Positions 524 to 12,973 of a stretch of 12,973 bases of DNA are shown here, one piece after another. Position 1 is the stretch's first letter, and each line of letters starts with the position of its first letter. The stretch is from an uncultured Eggerthellaceae bacterium (lineage in GTDB: Bacteria > Actinomycetota > Coriobacteriia > Coriobacteriales > Eggerthellaceae). A model generated the notes under the pieces. The model had not been told where the DNA came from and searched no databases. It saw nothing but the letters and a program-made list of their open reading frames with translations. A program made the translations under genes and the position numbers. The stretch is taken from NCBI GenBank assembly GCA_946631805.1, contig CAMPAJ010000019.1:1-12973 (forward strand). Reading direction: 5' to 3'.

Positions 524-2668
524 ATGAATTACCGCGTTTTGCCTAGCTGTGTTCGCCGCTTGACGAACATGCACGTTCCCTATGCCGCCGCATGGCTGCT
601 TGTCCTGCTCGTGTTTGCTTGCACAGCGTTCGCTCAGCCTGCATCTGCAACCGGTCTCACCGCTGGGTCGGTGGACGAAAGCACGCAAGCTCCCGCTGCC
701 GAAGAAACCGTGGACGAAGAGCCGCCACCCTACACGGGCAAGGGCGATATCGCAGCTGGAACGTATTACATTTGCTCGTCGTACGCGAACGATCGGGTCG
801 TGTGCCTCGACAAGAAATCGAAAAAGAACGGCATCGAAGCCAAGATCAAGCAGGTTAGGGGCACCAAGGCCCAGCGCTGGATCGTGGCCTTCGACGCCAA
901 GGGGTTCGCCACCATCCGCAACGCTTCAACGGGCCGTTACCTGACGTGCCTCGACAAGAAAGCCAAAGCCGGGACCGACGTCGCACAATGGAAGAAGCAA
1001 TCCAAGAACGCAAAGACGCAGCGCTGGATCGTCAAAAAGCAAGGCAGCGGCTACGTCATATGTTCGGCAATCAACAAGAAACGCGTGCTCCAGACATCGG
1101 GAAAGAAGGCGAACGAAGAACTCTCGGTAACGATTCAAAAGCGCACGAACAAGAAGCGCCAGCTGTTCACGCTCGTACCCGAAAAAGCAGCCGCAGCAGA
1201 ACCTGGCACGCAAGTGATCGAAGACGGGACGTACGCCCTCAACCTTGCAGCTGTGAACGGCCTGGCCGTAACGGTCGAAGACTCGTCGAAGGATGCAGGC
1301 GCTAACGTCCACATGTGGGCAACTGGCGGCGTCGCTGGCCAGGCTTTCAAAATCGCCTACGACGGGAAGGGCTACTACACCCTTACAAACGTGTATTCCA
1401 AGAAAAACCTCGCCGTCGCTCGCTCTTGTGCTGTTCCCGGGATGAACATCGTGCAATCGACGAGCAAGAAGACCAATTTGAGCAAGTGGCGCATCGATTC
1501 GTTCAAAACAGGCTACCGGTTCGTCAACAAAGCGACCGGCCTGGCCCTTGCCATCCCCAAAACCGCATGCGAAAACGGCGACAACGTATTCGGGAATAAG
1601 CCGAACAAGGGCAAGAAGCAGCTGTTCAACCTTGTACCCACAACCGCGGTGAGCCCAGCTTTTAGCGGGGTCTACTACCTGACCATGTGCAAGAAGCCAA
1701 GCCGCGTGGTAGAGCCTGTAGATTGCCTGCGCCACAACAACGTCAAGGCGCAGATTTACAAGAAGCGCACGAAGGACACCAACGTGCAAAAGGTTCGCCT
1801 GAAGAAGGCGGGCAAGGGCCTGTACTACATCCAAAACGTCGCCACGAAACGTGTCTTGAGCTTGGCCGGCACTTCCAAGAAGGAGCGCTCGTCGATCGTA
1901 TATGCATACAACCTCAAGAAAAAGCAGAACAAGTGGTCAATCGTACTTAACGAGGATATGTCCGTAAGTTTCAAGAACGCCTATTCCGGCACGATGCTCA
2001 CGGTATCCGGAGGAAACACGGACAAAGGAACCAAGCTCAAGGCCAAGAACGCGACTGCGAAACTCGCGCCTGCCCAGAAATTCTGGCTGCAGGGAACAGA
2101 AAAGGTGAAGGAGCAAGTCGTTCTCGACGTGCCCTGCTACATGCAGAACCCGCAGCTGCCAACGGGCTGCGAATCGGTCGCGCTCACGAACGAGTTGCGC
2201 TACTGGGGCTTCAAGCTCGGCAAGACCACCATGGCCTACCACTGGATCCCCTACGGCTCCGATGGCGTGTACAACTTCATCGGCAGCCCCAGCAACGAGT
2301 CGGGTTGGATTATCTGCGCGCCGGGAATCGAGCGCACGGCTAACAAATACATGAGCTCGAAGGACTCCTCGCTCGTAGCCGTCAACATAACCGGCACGTC
2401 CCTCAGGGGCCTGCGCACGTACCTCGACCAAGGCTACCCAGTGATTATCTGGACGACCATCGGCCTGGGCAGCCCTGGCTATGCCACGTACAAGCATGGT
2501 TATCCGCTTCGTTCCAACAACCACGCCATCGTGCTCAGCGGCTACGACCCCGAATCCGGCAAGTACCGCGTTGCCGACTCGCTCGCTGGCACCGTCTGGC
2601 GCTCAGGTGGCATCTTCACCACGCGTTACAACCAAATGGGCAAGCAAGCCGTCGTGATCTTGGATTAG
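524..2668 (+). CDS. Secreted protein: three ricin-type beta-trefoils plus C39-like cysteine peptidase domain
   Basis: A 714-aa exported protein. A basic N-terminus (residues 1-18) and a hydrophobic core at about 20-36 form a signal peptide, with cleavage likely after AFA (about 37) or ASA (about 42). A short acidic Pro/Glu linker follows (about 48-73). Nine units of about 48 residues come next, each ending in a QRWIV-, KWRI- or QLFTL-like motif. They group into three RICIN beta-trefoils at about 75-219, 232-372 and 380-524. Residues 533-714 resemble the Peptidase_C39_2 fold: Gln541 (oxyanion), Cys549 in PTGCES, His667 in NNHAIVLSGYD and Asp685 in VADS give a complete papain-like set. The trefoils suggest binding to glycans or the cell wall; the substrate is unknown. 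The start is fixed by a GAGGA ribosome site at 511-515, 8 nt before ATG. The repeats are very rich in Lys-Lys pairs. It is probably in one operon with the preceding gene. Domain calls are strong; the role is inferred. Confidence 0.88.
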   Translation: MNYRVLPSCVRRLTNMHVPYAAAWLLVLLVFACTAFAQPASATGLTAGSVDESTQAPAAEETVDEEPPPYTGKGDIAAGTYYICSSYANDRVVCLDKKSKKNGIEAKIKQVRGTKAQRWIVAFDAKGFATIRNASTGRYLTCLDKKAKAGTDVAQWKKQSKNAKTQRWIVKKQGSGYVICSAINKKRVLQTSGKKANEELSVTIQKRTNKKRQLFTLVPEKAAAAEPGTQVIEDGTYALNLAAVNGLAVTVEDSSKDAGANVHMWATGGVAGQAFKIAYDGKGYYTLTNVYSKKNLAVARSCAVPGMNIVQSTSKKTNLSKWRIDSFKTGYRFVNKATGLALAIPKTACENGDNVFGNKPNKGKKQLFNLVPTTAVSPAFSGVYYLTMCKKPSRVVEPVDCLRHNNVKAQIYKKRTKDTNVQKVRLKKAGKGLYYIQNVATKRVLSLAGTSKKERSSIVYAYNLKKKQNKWSIVLNEDMSVSFKNAYSGTMLTVSGGNTDKGTKLKAKNATAKLAPAQKFWLQGTEKVKEQVVLDVPCYMQNPQLPTGCESVALTNELRYWGFKLGKTTMAYHWIPYGSDGVYNFIGSPSNESGWIICAPGIERTANKYMSSKDSSLVAVNITGTSLRGLRTYLDQGYPVIIWTTIGLGSPGYATYKHGYPLRSNNHAIVLSGYDPESGKYRVADSLAGTVWRSGGIFTTRYNQMGKQAVVILD

Positions 2669-5197: not shown

Positions 5198-8100
5198 TTA
5201 ATCCTGTTTTAACAGCTCAACGATGTAATTGATGTTCTCTTCGAATATCAGCTCGTCGACGTTCTCGTAGATGTCATCGGCACTGCCCTTCAGGGCGGGA
5301 CGCCCATCCTCGACGCCGAGGATGTGCATGGCCTGTAGACCCGACTTCTGCATGACGGTGGTGATGCTGTCGGTTGCAAGCTTGATCTGGCCAAGGACTA
5401 TGCCCGTCGCCTCGGCAGCGCCGCGAGTGAAGCGCTTGATGCGCGACGATGCCTGCATCTTCCTGAACTGGCCTTCCTCGGAAGCAACGCACAGCTCGCC
5501 AACGCCGAGCGATTCAAGTTCGATGACCATGGCGCCACGCAGCTCATGCTTGTGCTCCTCTACGAAGGCGCGCGCACCATCGTGCAGCTCGGTGTCGGAG
5601 CCAATGGCCACGAACCAGATTTCGGCATCGAAATCTGGATTGCGGAAGTGGTAGATCTGCTCGATTTCCTCGTTGAGCTCGTGATCTTCGGTTGCCTCGA
5701 TGGCTTCCTGGATAGGATCTTCCTCTTCATCGACGCCCGAACGCGTATCTACATGGCCCAGACGTATGCGCGAGAACGCGCCGCCTTCCCACTTGCGGCC
5801 GTTCGCATTGGACTCTTCGTCGCGGAAGCTCTCCCAGCTGCCGCGTTCGCGCCCAACTTCACGTGCCTCGAAGTCATCGTCGACGTTGAGCCACTCCTGC
5901 GGCGTATCCTTGAGCTCTGCGCCCTCGTTGTTGCGGATCCTGTTCAGGAAACCGCCTGCACGAGATTTGGGAACCTCTACTTGGCCAGGCGCAGGCGTTG
6001 CAGCTGATTGCGCCCCGTCGGCCGGCTCCTCTGTTTCGGATTCGTCGAATACGGCCGGCACATCGATCTTTGCCGGCTTCTTCTCTACGACGACGGGGAT
6101 TTCCATGCTGTAGTCGACATCGGAATGGTCGGCTTCGACCGTTATCTTGGGGAGTTGGGAAGATTCGAGCAACGAGCCTCGTTCGGGTTCGCTCACGGGT
6201 ATCGGCGAGATTATGCCCGAAAGCGATGGCACGTCGGTGCGGAGCATGCGGAACAACCCCGAACGCGACGGGTTCGTGTTCTCGGGGACGCCTTCCTTCT
6301 TGTCTTGGCCGTCCACGAGCGGAAGATTCTGAAGACGTAGGCGCGCACTGTTGTCAAGGTTGTCCTGCGCGGCCTCTTGCTCCTCTTGGGCAGGCTCATC
6401 ATCTTGCATTACTTCCGCGATCTCGTCTTTGAGCTCTTCTTGAATCGCCTGGCGAAGCATCGCGGGCGTAAATGCGATAGTTTGCCCAAGATCGACCTTG
6501 GGCTCATCCGCAAGACGATCCTCGAAAGTGCCGGGGTTCTGAATGGGTTCGAGCGTCAAGCCAGTCTGGCCTGCCATGTTTTCCCTGGAGCTATCGATTT
6601 CCAGCGCCTCATCGGCATCTTCATCCAACGCCTTAGCAGGGAGCTCCGTATCGTCAGCCTCTTCAGGTTGCTCGAAATCAGGTTCGGCCTGCATGCCCTC
6701 GCCAACATCAACGCTGGCGCCGTCATCTGCATCAGCTGCCGTTGAAAACGCCTCGAATCGCGGTTGGTACGTTTCATCGACCTGTGCATCTTCGACTGCA
6801 ACGACGTCTTCGAACGTCGGCTGCTCGGGCGTGGCCGCGAACTCGTTTTCGGGTTCGGGTTCTGCAGGTGCTTCCACCATCGCTGCAAGCGCAGCACGGG
6901 AAGCCGCTTCGCGCTCCAGTTGCTCCTTCGCACGGGCGGCCCGCTCCTCTTCCTCGCGTGCGCGCTCGCGCTCGGCGAGCTGCTGTTCCGCCGCCTGGAT
7001 AGCTTCGGTGTAGCGTGACTTCTGAATCGGTTTGGCCGACTCGCTCTTCTTGGCATTGCGCTGCGCCGCGACAAACCAGCTCGGCGCGTTCTCGAAACCA
7101 GACACATCCTCTTCGACCGCAGGTGCGAAGGCTGCGGGGTCTATAGGAGCAAAGGCGCTTTCGACCACCGGCGCTTCCTCGATGTCGTCAAAAGACGGCT
7201 CGCTGTAGTCCTCGTACGCATACTCGGGCTCTTCATACTGCTCCTTCGGGGCAGGAGTAGCGTAAATATGCTGATCGATTGGCCTTCCCGTCAATGCGGC
7301 AATCGCGGCCTTGGCCGCGAGCAGACGCTCCTCTTCGCTCGCGTTATCGAATTCCTCATCGGTCATCTCTGCTTCGTAGTTCAGCTGCGCATCGTCAGGT
7401 ACCAGGCCTTCTGCACGGGCGGCACGCTCGCCGTGAACTACAGCTTCGCCCTCGTCCGCCAGAAGATCGGCTTCGCTCAGGCTTCCCGAATTGATGCGCT
7501 GGGCGATTTCGAGCAGAGCCGCGACGCCGGTCGCGTTGTTGTTTGCGCCCTCGTTATAGGGGGCGACGCGGTACAGGATGGCTTTGACTATAGGCATAGC
7601 CACCAAAATGATGGCGATGATGGTAAGCAGGTTGATGAAGATGAGGCCCGCTCCACCCGTGCCGCCGAGGAACAGGCGAAGCAAGAGGAAGAACGGTGCA
7701 GCCACCATACCGGCAAGGCATACCTTGGAAAGGGGAAGGTTCATGCTTTCGGCGCGTTGGATAATACCCGGCGTCACCTTGCCCGTATCGTAATGGGCGA
7801 TGAGCACGATCTTGCGACGGCGGGCGCCGCGCTTTTCTTCTGCACCTTCACCGAATGGCTGGTACTTAGCCACGACGTTTTGGCTTGCCCCGCGCGCCAG
7901 CCTGCTCGAAATGATCGGCTTGTCGTATGCCTCGAGCACATAAATGACGGCTGCGATGAGTGCGAGCACGAGCGCCGGAATAGTCAGGATGTTGAACAGC
8001 ATGGCCAGAATCGAAACCACGATGGTGATCATGGCCAAGATGGCACGGCCGCCTTCGAGGTTCGACGAGCTCGTGAAGTCCTCGATGTTTGCCGTGAACC

Positions 8101-8221
8101 CGGCTTCTTTTTGGAATTCGTCAGCAATGTAAAGGGCCGCCTGCTGTTCTTCTTCGGTTCCTGCAGGGCGTGCACCTATTTCCTTGGATAGATACTCTAC
8201 GTAATCAAGTGGCTGGGGCAT
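5198..8221 (-). CDS. Four-TM protein on a degenerate M28 peptidase fold, split by a long acidic insertion
   Basis: A 1007-aa protein. Residues 1-55 (LSKEIGARPAGTEEEQQAALYIADEF) and 115-150 (IAHYDTGK, with His143 and Asp145) match the start of M28 metallo-aminopeptidases. The segment EGANNNATGVAALLEIA (224-240) is the next M28 block. The fold resumes at about 865 (EIWFVAIGSDTELHDGARAF) and runs to the end (ADDIYENVDEL). Two hydrophobic hairpins give four TM helices at about 57-79, 80-98, 166-186 and 189-213. The basic KRGARRRK between them suggests the M28 parts face the cytoplasm. About 620 residues (245-865) of Glu/Asp/Ala-rich, probably disordered sequence with a charged helix near 403-450 interrupt the domain. 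Expected metal ligands are mostly altered: bridging Asp is Asn228, Glu-Glu is Asp876-Thr877, Asp is Glu903 and the last His is Gly979. Catalysis is therefore doubtful. CGGAAGG ends 7 nt before ATG 8221. Function unknown. Confidence 0.85.
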   Translation of the reverse strand: MPQPLDYVEYLSKEIGARPAGTEEEQQAALYIADEFQKEAGFTANIEDFTSSSNLEGGRAILAMITIVVSILAMLFNILTIPALVLALIAAVIYVLEAYDKPIISSRLARGASQNVVAKYQPFGEGAEEKRGARRRKIVLIAHYDTGKVTPGIIQRAESMNLPLSKVCLAGMVAAPFFLLLRLFLGGTGGAGLIFINLLTIIAIILVAMPIVKAILYRVAPYNEGANNNATGVAALLEIAQRINSGSLSEADLLADEGEAVVHGERAARAEGLVPDDAQLNYEAEMTDEEFDNASEEERLLAAKAAIAALTGRPIDQHIYATPAPKEQYEEPEYAYEDYSEPSFDDIEEAPVVESAFAPIDPAAFAPAVEEDVSGFENAPSWFVAAQRNAKKSESAKPIQKSRYTEAIQAAEQQLAERERAREEEERAARAKEQLEREAASRAALAAMVEAPAEPEPENEFAATPEQPTFEDVVAVEDAQVDETYQPRFEAFSTAADADDGASVDVGEGMQAEPDFEQPEEADDTELPAKALDEDADEALEIDSSRENMAGQTGLTLEPIQNPGTFEDRLADEPKVDLGQTIAFTPAMLRQAIQEELKDEIAEVMQDDEPAQEEQEAAQDNLDNSARLRLQNLPLVDGQDKKEGVPENTNPSRSGLFRMLRTDVPSLSGIISPIPVSEPERGSLLESSQLPKITVEADHSDVDYSMEIPVVVEKKPAKIDVPAVFDESETEEPADGAQSAATPAPGQVEVPKSRAGGFLNRIRNNEGAELKDTPQEWLNVDDDFEAREVGRERGSWESFRDEESNANGRKWEGGAFSRIRLGHVDTRSGVDEEEDPIQEAIEATEDHELNEEIEQIYHFRNPDFDAEIWFVAIGSDTELHDGARAFVEEHKHELRGAMVIELESLGVGELCVASEEGQFRKMQASSRIKRFTRGAAEATGIVLGQIKLATDSITTVMQKSGLQAMHILGVEDGRPALKGSADDIYENVDELIFEENINYIVELLKQD

Positions 8222-9588: not shown

Positions 9589-12500
9589 CTACCACTTGGC
9601 CATGAGGCTGAGTGCATCGACTATCTCGGCCATCGTTCGCACGCGCACCGTTTTGCTTTGCAACGAGTTGAGGAACGTCTTGCCGTACCGCTTTGTTACC
9701 AAGCGCTTGTCGGCCAATATGAGCACGCCATGATCATCGTGTTTGCGTATAAGTCTCCCGGCAGCTTGCTTTGTCTCGATAACCGCTTGCGGCAACACAT
9801 AATGCCACCACGCGTGGTCGTCGCGCGAAGCACGCTCGCAGTACAGCGGATCGGTGGGCCTGCCAAAGGGAAGCTTGGGTATTACCACGCCCTTGAGCGT
9901 CGCTCCCGGAGCATCGAATCCCTCCCAGAACGACTTGAGCGCAAACAAGGACAAGTGCTCGTCGGCAAGGAAATCATCGCGCAGCCCCTTAACCGATACG
10001 CCGTAACGTTGGCAAATAAGCCGCAAACCTTCACGCTTTAGCTCCGGAAAAACTTCCTCGTAGCATCGCTCCATCTCGCGTCGATTCGTGAACAGCGTGA
10101 GCATGGATCCGTTTTGCGCAAGGTGAACTTGGCGAAGCAACTCGTTGAGCGCAGAAAGATACTGGGGGTCATTGGGCTCGGGTATATCCGACACAACGTA
10201 GATAATCATGTTGTTGTCGAAGTCGTAGCTCGAATCCAGCTCTATGAACTTCGATTGCGAGAATTCCCCCTTGTTCAGACCAACGGCATCGGCAAACGTG
10301 TCGAACTTGCCGTTCACCGTAAGCGTCGCCGAGGCGTACACGACAGAATGGGTGCGCGTATAGAGCGTCTCGTTCATCTTGTCGCCCACATCGAGCAACA
10401 ACGCCTGCACGCTATCTTGCAAGCGATCCTTCTTCTTGAAGAGCGTTGCCTGGTATACGTAATTGTCCGGTACCACTTGGAATATGAGTTCCGCAGCGTT
10501 GCGTATCTCTCGAGCATCCATGACGCATGACGCTATTTCGCGCTGAGCAACGGCTGCTTCTTCGATTCCCTCAAGGTAGGCTACAACATCGGATGCTTTT
10601 GCGATGAGCTTGTCGGAAGCTTCGACGAGTTGCAAGACGATGGCCGCCACGTCGTTGAACTTTTGCGAATGCCGTACGTCGGCGTTCAGCCAAATATCCG
10701 ACTGATCATAGGAATGATTGCGTTTGCCCTTACTCGAAGGGTCAAAGTACAAAAGGTCTTTGACGCGGAGTGCGTATTCACTCACTACTTGCGCATATGC
10801 GTTGCCAGCTTCGCGCGCTTTCACAAGGAGCCCGAAGAGCAAGGTCAGTTGCTCGCCTTCTACATGTGCAATACTACGCTCCACATGCGTGAACACATTG
10901 CGTCCGCCTGATGCGTCGCTAACTTGGTCGGCTATGCGAACGAGCGCTTCGGAATCGACCTTCTGGGCGAAGGCGGAACGCGCCTCGTTTTCGGTGGAAT
11001 GGGCCTCGTCGACAATCCAATGGCGAATGGTCGGCAACAATCCGCCATCAGCTGCCAAGTCGCAGAATAGAAGCGAGTGATTGGTTACGACAACATCGGC
11101 CATCTCTGCGCGGCGCCGTGCACCATGAACGAAACAGAGCTTGCCGAAAAATGGGCATTTCCTCCGCAGGCATTCGCTGCTCTTACAAGTAACGCTATAT
11201 CGAGGAAGCGCGCGGTAGTCGATCTTGCACGAATCCATGTCGTCGAAGTCGCTTTGCTCCACATATGAAAGCAAAGCTGCCAAGGAGGGGGCCTGGCTTA
11301 CGGGCTTTCCAGCCACATCGCGCATCCCGGGGCCGTTATCCACAAGCCGCGATATCTTCCTTAGGCATGGGTAATGCGACATGCCTTTTAAAGGAGCCCA
11401 AGTAAGCTTCGCATCAGGTCCGTAAACGTCTTGCAGCGCTTCATCGAGCGCCGGCAATTCCTTGTATACGAGTTGATCGAGCAACGAGTTGGTTTTAGTT
11501 GCAACTCCTACGCAAACATCGTTGCTCTTTGCGAACAAGGCGGCAGGAACAAGATATGCCATCGACTTGCCTACGCCAGTCCCGGCTTCGACGGCAAGGT
11601 TTTCGCTATTTTCAAAGGCAGACCGAATACTTTGGGCCATCGATAATTGCTCGGCCCGCGGTTCGTAATCGGCGTACATAGAGCCGAGCAAGCCGTCCGA
11701 TGTAAAAGCCTCGCCGATTACATCGATGGGAGGGAACGTGAGCTGACCCACCAAATCGTCGGCGTCCTTGCGTGCCATGCGCGCGGGTAGCGTAAGTACA
11801 CGCCTTTTGCGCATTTCGCGTACCGAGAACTTTTGCCGTAGTTTCTTTGCTGGCTCTTCCTCATGCTGCTTTTCTTCGAGCAACGTTTGAACGAAGACAT
11901 CGAAGTCCGATGATTCCTGGTGCGCTTCGGAGGTTTCACGTGAAACGTCATCGCTCGCGTTTTCTTGTTCGTCCAGTGCCTTGATGTCTTCGGATTTGAA
12001 ATCCAGATCTTGCAGTCTCTCGATTTGCTGGAACACGAATCCCGTATTCCAATCCTCGATCGTTGCCATCTGACCGATTTCGCTCACAAGTGATGCGGGC
12101 ATGTTTGCGACTGCTGCCAACAATATACGGTATACCACACAGGTCGCAGCCACATCATCATCGGCTCGATGCGTCGAAATCGGCGCATCAAACGTACGCA
12201 CCAAATCGAGGAGCCTGTGAGATTTAAGACGCGGCAAAGCGATGCGCGACAAGTCCAGAGAGTCAATCCATATATTGTTGAGCAGCGGATATCCGGCAGG
12301 ATGTTTGGTGCAAAATGTTCTGTCGAATGTTGCGTTGTGCGCAACAACTAGAGCATCCCCCACAAATTCCGCCAATCCTTCCAAGGCCTCGTTTGGCGAT
12401 GGCGCATCAATTAGATCGGTATCGGTGATGTGGGTCAGCTGAATGATATCGTCGGTTAGAAACCGTCCCGGATTGACGAACGTTACATACCAATCGACGA

Positions 12501-12705
12501 TTTGTCCGCAGTGCATCCGCGCCGCGGCAATCTGGATGAGTTCGTCTTTGGAAAACGATAGGCCCGTCGTCTCGGTATCGATAACGACGACGTTTCTATC
12601 GAGGACGCCGAAATCGGTGTGTTCGGCAAAGTCGGCAAGCCCTTCGTAACGCGTGATTACATCAATCGGGGTACCGTCAAGTATGTGATCTGTAATAGTA
12701 GCCAT
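9589..12705 (-). CDS. dinG: DinG/XPD-type ATP-dependent DNA helicase with N-terminal DEDDh exonuclease domain
   Basis: A 1038-aa fusion of a DnaQ-like 3'-5' exonuclease and a superfamily 2 helicase, as in Firmicute DinG. Exonuclease: Asp43/Glu45 in VIDTETTG, Asp128 in AHNATFD, and His179 with Asp184 in HRADDD, so the DEDDh set is complete. A charged linker covers about 236-300. Helicase: Walker A GTGVGK (375-380), five Cys at 447, 507, 512, 517 and 524 of which four would hold the 4Fe-4S cluster, DEAH (566-569), and motif VI QAAGRLIR near the C-terminus. DinG enzymes unwind forked DNA, R-loops or G-quadruplexes and act in DNA damage tolerance; that role here is by family. No ribosome site precedes ATG 12705, but TACAAT sits so that transcription would begin at the A of ATG. 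The linker codons contain a parS core (separate entry). Probably first gene of an operon with the membrane coiled-coil gene. Confidence 0.94.
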   Translation of the reverse strand: MATITDHILDGTPIDVITRYEGLADFAEHTDFGVLDRNVVVIDTETTGLSFSKDELIQIAAARMHCGQIVDWYVTFVNPGRFLTDDIIQLTHITDTDLIDAPSPNEALEGLAEFVGDALVVAHNATFDRTFCTKHPAGYPLLNNIWIDSLDLSRIALPRLKSHRLLDLVRTFDAPISTHRADDDVAATCVVYRILLAAVANMPASLVSEIGQMATIEDWNTGFVFQQIERLQDLDFKSEDIKALDEQENASDDVSRETSEAHQESSDFDVFVQTLLEEKQHEEEPAKKLRQKFSVREMRKRRVLTLPARMARKDADDLVGQLTFPPIDVIGEAFTSDGLLGSMYADYEPRAEQLSMAQSIRSAFENSENLAVEAGTGVGKSMAYLVPAALFAKSNDVCVGVATKTNSLLDQLVYKELPALDEALQDVYGPDAKLTWAPLKGMSHYPCLRKISRLVDNGPGMRDVAGKPVSQAPSLAALLSYVEQSDFDDMDSCKIDYRALPRYSVTCKSSECLRRKCPFFGKLCFVHGARRRAEMADVVVTNHSLLFCDLAADGGLLPTIRHWIVDEAHSTENEARSAFAQKVDSEALVRIADQVSDASGGRNVFTHVERSIAHVEGEQLTLLFGLLVKAREAGNAYAQVVSEYALRVKDLLYFDPSSKGKRNHSYDQSDIWLNADVRHSQKFNDVAAIVLQLVEASDKLIAKASDVVAYLEGIEEAAVAQREIASCVMDAREIRNAAELIFQVVPDNYVYQATLFKKKDRLQDSVQALLLDVGDKMNETLYTRTHSVVYASATLTVNGKFDTFADAVGLNKGEFSQSKFIELDSSYDFDNNMIIYVVSDIPEPNDPQYLSALNELLRQVHLAQNGSMLTLFTNRREMERCYEEVFPELKREGLRLICQRYGVSVKGLRDDFLADEHLSLFALKSFWEGFDAPGATLKGVVIPKLPFGRPTDPLYCERASRDDHAWWHYVLPQAVIETKQAAGRLIRKHDDHGVLILADKRLVTKRYGKTFLNSLQSKTVRVRTMAEIVDALSLMAKW
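11932..11947. promoter_or_regulatory. parS: parS-like centromere site inside dinG
   Basis: Bases 11933-11946 read GTTTCACGTGAAAC, a perfect 14-bp palindrome identical to the chromosomal parS core bound by ParB/Spo0J in Actinobacteria. It also matches the central 14 bases of the wider consensus TGTTTCACGTGAAACA; the flanking bases here are G and G. In the gene it encodes Val254-Thr258 (VSRET) of the linker between exonuclease and helicase domains, where sequence constraint is low. The chance of this exact 14-mer in a random 13-kb window is roughly 5 in 100,000. No second copy was found in the window. ParB binding is inferred. Confidence 0.8.
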
Positions 12706-12836: not shown

Positions 12837-12973
12837 TTGGAACTAGTAGATTATTCGTATGAAGGATTCTATGCGCGTTTTAACGCTGCAGACCAAAAAC
12901 AAGGCGGCTTGCTCATGGGCGCCGACAATCTGGTTGGCGACGACTTCGAAGTCTTCTTTAAAGTAGAGGATGG
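12837..12973 (+). CDS. Start of an unrecognised protein gene (3' end outside window)
   Basis: An open frame runs from TTG 12837 to the window edge, 45 full codons, beginning (M)ELVDYSYEGFYARF and continuing through QGGLLMGADNLVGDD. AGAAGGA (12823-12829) ends 7 nt before TTG, a good ribosome site, and no ATG or GTG in this frame is better placed. A competing frame from ATG 12871 closes at TAG within the window and has no ribosome site. The gene diverges from dinG. The visible residues match no family I can name; aromatic and acidic residues are frequent, with no signal peptide or membrane segment so far. Confidence 0.6.
   Translation, partial: MELVDYSYEGFYARFNAADQKQGGLLMGADNLVGDDFEVFFKVED

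Follow-up and report, generated by a model that had tools for sequence, protein, structure and literature searches.

A candidate chromosomal parS site in the inter-domain linker of DinG from an uncultured Eggerthellaceae bacterium

In chromosomal ParABS systems, ParB (ParB/Spo0J) closes on parS as a CTP clamp and slides along the DNA, and the coated region is moved by ParA and may load SMC. With regard to number, a range of 1-20 parS sites per genome has been given in one account (PMC10197239) and 24 sites are mentioned for M. xanthus in another (PMC10387095). Actinobacteria are described as possessing ParABS with parS near oriC, Eggerthella being named in the lists of that source (PMC4255298). 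With regard to position, nine of the ten parS sites of Pseudomonas aeruginosa PAO1 are stated most likely to lie within coding sequences (PMC4368675). Intragenic parS sites are therefore already known, and the site discussed here would add one with good comparative support; as in PAO1, it lies within a reading frame, but the recurrent use of a single linker, that of DinG, in many species and in one frame sets it apart. Among the open-access papers listed by the searches, titles and the beginnings of abstracts yielded no parS in dinG and no genome with more than 100 parS sites, and of the papers found with the 14-mer itself none concerned this class by title.

The window, that is, the whole stretch of 12,973 nucleotides that was analysed, contains the 14-bp core of chromosomal parS, GTTTCACGTGAAAC, without mismatch at positions 11933-11946. 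It is the sole match in the window on either strand when up to two mismatches are allowed (0.04 expected), and at least one match was found in 7 of 200 shuffles. Read on the minus strand, the 14-mer is GTT TCA CGT GAA AC and supplies codons 254-258 of DinG, translated as VSRET (11932-11946, minus strand). The original prediction had placed a parS core, identical to that of actinobacterial chromosomes, in linker codons at 11932-11947; the exact 14-mer and its identity with the core are borne out, the latter also by relatives, and a 14-bp palindrome does lie inside that interval, but the two outermost bases do not belong to it. These are G and G on the plus strand and do not pair, so that the perfect palindrome has 14 bp rather than 16, and they depart from the outer T..A of the 16-bp form TGTTTCACGTGAAACA. 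Among 224 copies collected from relatives' loci the outer bases are T..A in 214 and G..G in none; the remaining 10 also depart from T..A, which is thus preferred rather than strictly defining. The window core is whole, yet with G..G flanks its binding of ParB may be weaker. The flanks could also be taken as a mark of a former parS, now decaying or weak, with its outer bases changed, its binding poor and its persistence owed to recent descent, a reading to which the history of the site in DinG is relevant.

A further comparison is offered by the Noc-binding site NBS, likewise a palindrome read by a protein of the ParB fold, which is reported to differ from parS at positions 1 and 6 (PMC7383237). 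At both positions the window site carries the parS bases rather than those of NBS, if the numbering of that source starts inside the outer T..A, as it seems to.

The gene that houses the site, dinG (9589-12705, minus strand), encodes a 1038-residue fusion of an RNase_T exonuclease to a DinG-type helicase, with Pfam matches to RNase_T and Helicase_C_2 above the cut-off and a DEAD match just below it. The RNase_T match covers residues 40-191 and the helicase matches begin at residue 359; the 14-mer sits between them, within an inter-domain linker that an alignment of 55 DinGs places at residues 222-296 (11818-12042, minus strand). Beside dinG lies the start of a divergent gene (12837-12973, plus strand), cut by the window end after 137 bases, with 67% identity over 45 amino acids to L001:8850-9536; the same gene is thus the neighbour of dinG in the relative's locus L001.

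When the window DinG was scanned against genome contigs 47 loci were found, several with little flank or a partial dinG, and the best of these came, to judge by their titles, from Eggerthellaceae or Coriobacteriaceae, a number of them living in ruminant guts. Of the 47, 22 contain the exact 14-mer, in most cases roughly 2-7 kb upstream of dinG; in two (L001 and L002) it lies inside dinG. In both of the latter the gene order is rsmG, parA, parB, rlmN, ddl, divergent gene, dinG, with ddl, rlmN, parB and parA on the divergent-gene side of dinG, and from the end of parB to the start of dinG there are 3.7 kb (L001) and 3.2 kb (L002). The Pfam assignments are AAA_31 for ParA and ParB_N with HTH_ParB for ParB at both loci, GidB, RlmN_N and D-ala-D-ala ligase at L001, and the DnaA domains at L002, where dnaA is also present; a ParB_N match was obtained in all 14 relatives searched. 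Given the shared divergent neighbour and this gene order, the window's own parAB would be expected some 3-4 kb past the window end, which favours the earlier suggestion that the window is origin-proximal. The likeness to chromosomal parS comprises an identical 14-bp core, several copies in relatives near dnaA, rsmG and parAB, and the usual ParB domains; the outer G..G in place of T..A and the location in the dinG linker are the points of difference.

The best explanation, judged from sequence, is that the window 14-mer is very probably a working chromosomal parS housed in a tolerant DinG linker, a candidate ParB nucleation site that matches the core exactly and recurs near parAB and in the dinG linkers of relatives. 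A ParB dimer would bind the 14-mer, close as a CTP clamp and slide onto flanking DNA, adding to a ParB-coated origin region that would be moved by ParA and might load SMC; binding at this particular copy and a role in segregation are what we infer from the motif and its setting. The site would have come to lie in the dinG linker through selection for parS copies in DNA near parAB, and the linker, presumably disordered and flexible, would tolerate the polar peptide VSRET, selection acting on the DNA and not on the peptide. If this reading is right, the fixed pentapeptide and its codons are there because the DNA is required as a ParB site, and a DNA element would dictate a stretch of protein sequence.

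How far relatives share the linker site was examined in 55 DinGs. Of 100 relatives, 91 yielded a dinG, as did three further genomes (G009, G011 and G013), and 55 genomes were taken, mainly more distant ones being omitted; G014, with only the N-terminal part at its locus, was then dropped and the window added. The helicase-side dinG locus of G014 (L060) has no copy of the 14-mer. The open frames of the 55 DinGs contain 15 exact copies. All of them read VSRET, and none falls in the exonuclease or helicase domains. Two lie upstream of the DinG domains (G039 and G024) and 13 in the linkers of 11 DinGs, singly in the window, G001, G002, G017, G021, G023, G024, G031 and G049 and in duplicate in G026 and G041. 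The site is missing from the linkers of the other 44, including those of G003-G006. Linker length ranges from 18 to 147 residues, and the linkers can hardly be aligned except where two DinGs are closely related, as with the window and G001.

One could suppose that VSRET serves the DinG linker as a short functional motif, the palindrome being a by-product. The linker copies are always in the VSRET frame, with D or N often before the peptide and S after it; the frame alone is weak evidence, however, since of the three frames one is closed by a stop and the only other open frame gives FHVK. As sites chosen by exact match cannot prove codon conservation, the codon comparison was begun from the peptide, by way of the strings VSRE, SRET and VSR.T in the 55 DinGs. 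All 13 occurrences of VSRET in linkers use GTT TCA CGT GAA and carry the core, where the chance of these four codons from the window's own dinG codon usage is 0.0017 for the window alone; the three peptide matches without the core (G033, G016 and G018) are outside the linker. The product of the codon probabilities is 1e-44; given the common ancestry of the genes, it cannot be taken as a P value. The uniformity of the codons argues against selection on the peptide, as does the distribution of the 14-mer beyond dinG: nine marker genes were compared across 55 loci, and 171 of the 224 copies fall outside their open frames, while one copy each in rlmN and rsmG is in the FHVK frame. A peptide motif with the palindrome as its by-product is the least probable of the readings considered here and very unlikely.

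The 53 in-frame copies among the 224 comprise 30 that precede the first residue of the query protein and 23 in gene bodies, the latter distributed over dinG (12), ParA (4), ParB (3), rlmN (2) and rsmG (2). All gene-body copies in dinG, parA and parB read VSRET. Those of ParA are in an N-terminal extension (one in G058, one in G001 and two in G002), where DVSRET occurs once in L001:4198-5250 and twice in L002:4765-5781, and those of ParB (G022, G035 and G049) precede the ParB_N domain.

At the protein level, 25 of 121 proteins (the window and the 120 best of 3539 matches) have VSRET in the linker. When mapped on a maximum-likelihood tree built from the helicase part, with 55 rows, the linker site needs 5 changes, as against 10.3 in shuffles, and none of 500 shuffles reached 5 or fewer. 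The site is accordingly clustered by descent but was gained or lost several times; the tree does not distinguish between the two. In it the window falls together with G002 and G001, in which the site is present, and with G006, in which it is absent. For the alternative of a decaying or weak parS, absence from 44 of 55 linkers and at least five changes on the tree would indicate that loss may be common. Yet the 14 core bases are intact in the window, whereas at identical residues the window dinG shares the same codon with its relatives in 42% (G001), 43% (G002) and 45% (G006) of cases; one-mismatch variants are rare, a single one as against 39 exact copies in 11 low-copy loci of relatives; and the best protein match of the window DinG, 99% identical, retains VSRET at the protein level. 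Decay of a former parS is hence an unlikely explanation, and a working parS is preferred. The original prediction had proposed a comparison of dinG in related species, and its outcome is divided: wherever the linker has VSRET the motif is kept at synonymous positions (13 of 13), but most DinGs lack the peptide altogether. The further suggestion, that the protein has accommodated the DNA site in its linker, gains support from the linkers of relatives.

Copy number in whole genomes is low among the near relatives. Fourteen genomes reached via DinG loci have 0-5 exact copies each, and at least one in 12 of the 14; no exact 14-mer was found by the genome search in G005 and G006, both of them drafts. 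The reversed pattern, used as a control, gave 0 copies in these genomes. The site-bearing relatives G001, G002, G017 and G021 have 3, 5, 4 and 4 copies, respectively, and all 16 are inside dinG or within 7 kb of it. Elsewhere single copies are on a contig other than that of dinG in G007 and G013 and some 19 kb from dinG in G011, and G004, a much broken assembly, has copies on three contigs, none of which is that of dinG. The 14-mer is present in 75 of 100 relatives of G001.

Many copies scattered genome-wide had been named beforehand as evidence against a parS, and this pattern is absent from the near relatives but present in some cousins, with up to 150 copies. When 396 genomes of the class were sampled, at least one exact copy was present in 334 and 40-150 copies in 19, ten of which reach 106-150 (G023, G024, G041, G049, G152, G213, G216, G267, G270 and G307); the control gave none in the 396 apart from one copy in G103. 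In a sample of 396 genomes of the phylum, more than 33 copies were seen only in G023, G049 and G152, all of which are also in the class sample. The window's near relatives are not of this multiplied-copy kind.

The one such genome that was mapped, G023, has 114 exact copies (loci including L078-L107, L133 and L148-L167), which are densest near parB: 41 fall in 200 kb at 2.19-2.39 Mb, the stretch containing parB, and the other 73 are scattered across the remaining 3.2 Mb. Exact copies far outnumber those with one mismatch (41 versus 3 near parB, 31 versus 4 in the rest of the 400 kb considered below), which indicates that the motif is sharply kept. A single ParB_N match was found in G023 and two each in G024 and G049, the second ones weaker, and ParB looks similar in sequence across 23 genomes whose copy numbers run from 3 to 114.

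These cousins give reason to consider an operator, whereby the 14-mer, or the CACGTG within it, would be read by a transcription factor that is not related to ParB. In 400 kb of G023, half taken around parB and half picked because it contains copies, genes are called over 85% of the sequence, yet 55 of the 72 copies are intergenic; the coding calls are approximate, several frames having the look of antisense artefacts in a GC-rich genome. Moreover, distal copies have a longer palindrome, roughly GNACNRAT-core-ATYNGTNC, unlike the copies near parB (L078, L083, L089, L092, L098, L106 and others). Among 87 copies with flanks read, C at -5 is present in 83% of 46 distal ones, in 51% of 41 near parB and in 8% of the 13 innermost. 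Eight tandem pairs spaced 34-36 bases apart are all distal. Either ParB or another protein may read these distal copies.

Positional conservation of the scattered copies was searched for in 16 genomes. Among genomes for which the DNA in question was available, an exact copy precedes a MetG-like gene in 2 of 15 (by 128 bases in G023 and 152 in G049) and a CydA-like gene in 6 of 14 (L186-L190 and L197; G023, G213, G152, G216, G267 and G024). The paucity of shared positions suggests that copies turn over between species; recurrence upstream of the CydA-like gene makes a regulatory role for scattered copies possible, but the distances there vary, from 105 to 658 bases. A single regulon for the scattered copies of G023 was rejected: 24 predicted proteins that flank them are diverse, with no single theme as judged by eye without a family search, and include some that resemble methionyl-tRNA synthetase, cytochrome bd oxidase, catalase, MurB, ornithine carbamoyltransferase, copper ATPases and LuxR-type regulators, the largest group in an all-against-all comparison having six entries. 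For the window, with its site in mid-gene and near relatives holding just 0-5 copies, an operator unrelated to ParB is very improbable, and a parS remains the favoured reading.

Window and cousins might conceivably be parts of one phenomenon. Throughout the class, exact 14-mers would be selected wherever the sequence is permissive, in origin-near linkers (those of DinG, ParA and ParB, in the VSRET frame) and, in some species, at 100-150 sites chromosome-wide (mostly intergenic where examined), and a single ordinary ParB would coat and organise the entire chromosome, the window being a low-copy example. This extension is put forward tentatively, as a possibility that we consider somewhat doubtful. 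The multiplied copies in cousins most deserve experimental work; if the 40-150 exact copies of such genomes are bound, chromosome-wide action of ParB becomes directly testable.

A few other features of the window and its relatives may be recorded. A perfect DnaA box, TTATCCACA, is present at 11336-11344, but its aligned place is filled in 1 of 55 DinGs (gapped rows counted as without it); it was set aside as a meaningful element and is probably due to chance, as had been suspected. The dinG of G001 has an in-frame TAA at L001:12691-12701 between two otherwise open parts, reflecting either an assembly error or a broken gene. Elsewhere in the window, positions 524-2668 (plus strand) encode a 714-residue, perhaps secreted protein in which ricin-type lectin domains are repeated and a C39-like peptidase domain is also present. 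Positions 5198-8221 (minus strand) encode a 1007-residue protein that matches M28 peptidase over a short stretch and whose long middle part, acidic and of low complexity, looks disordered on visual inspection.
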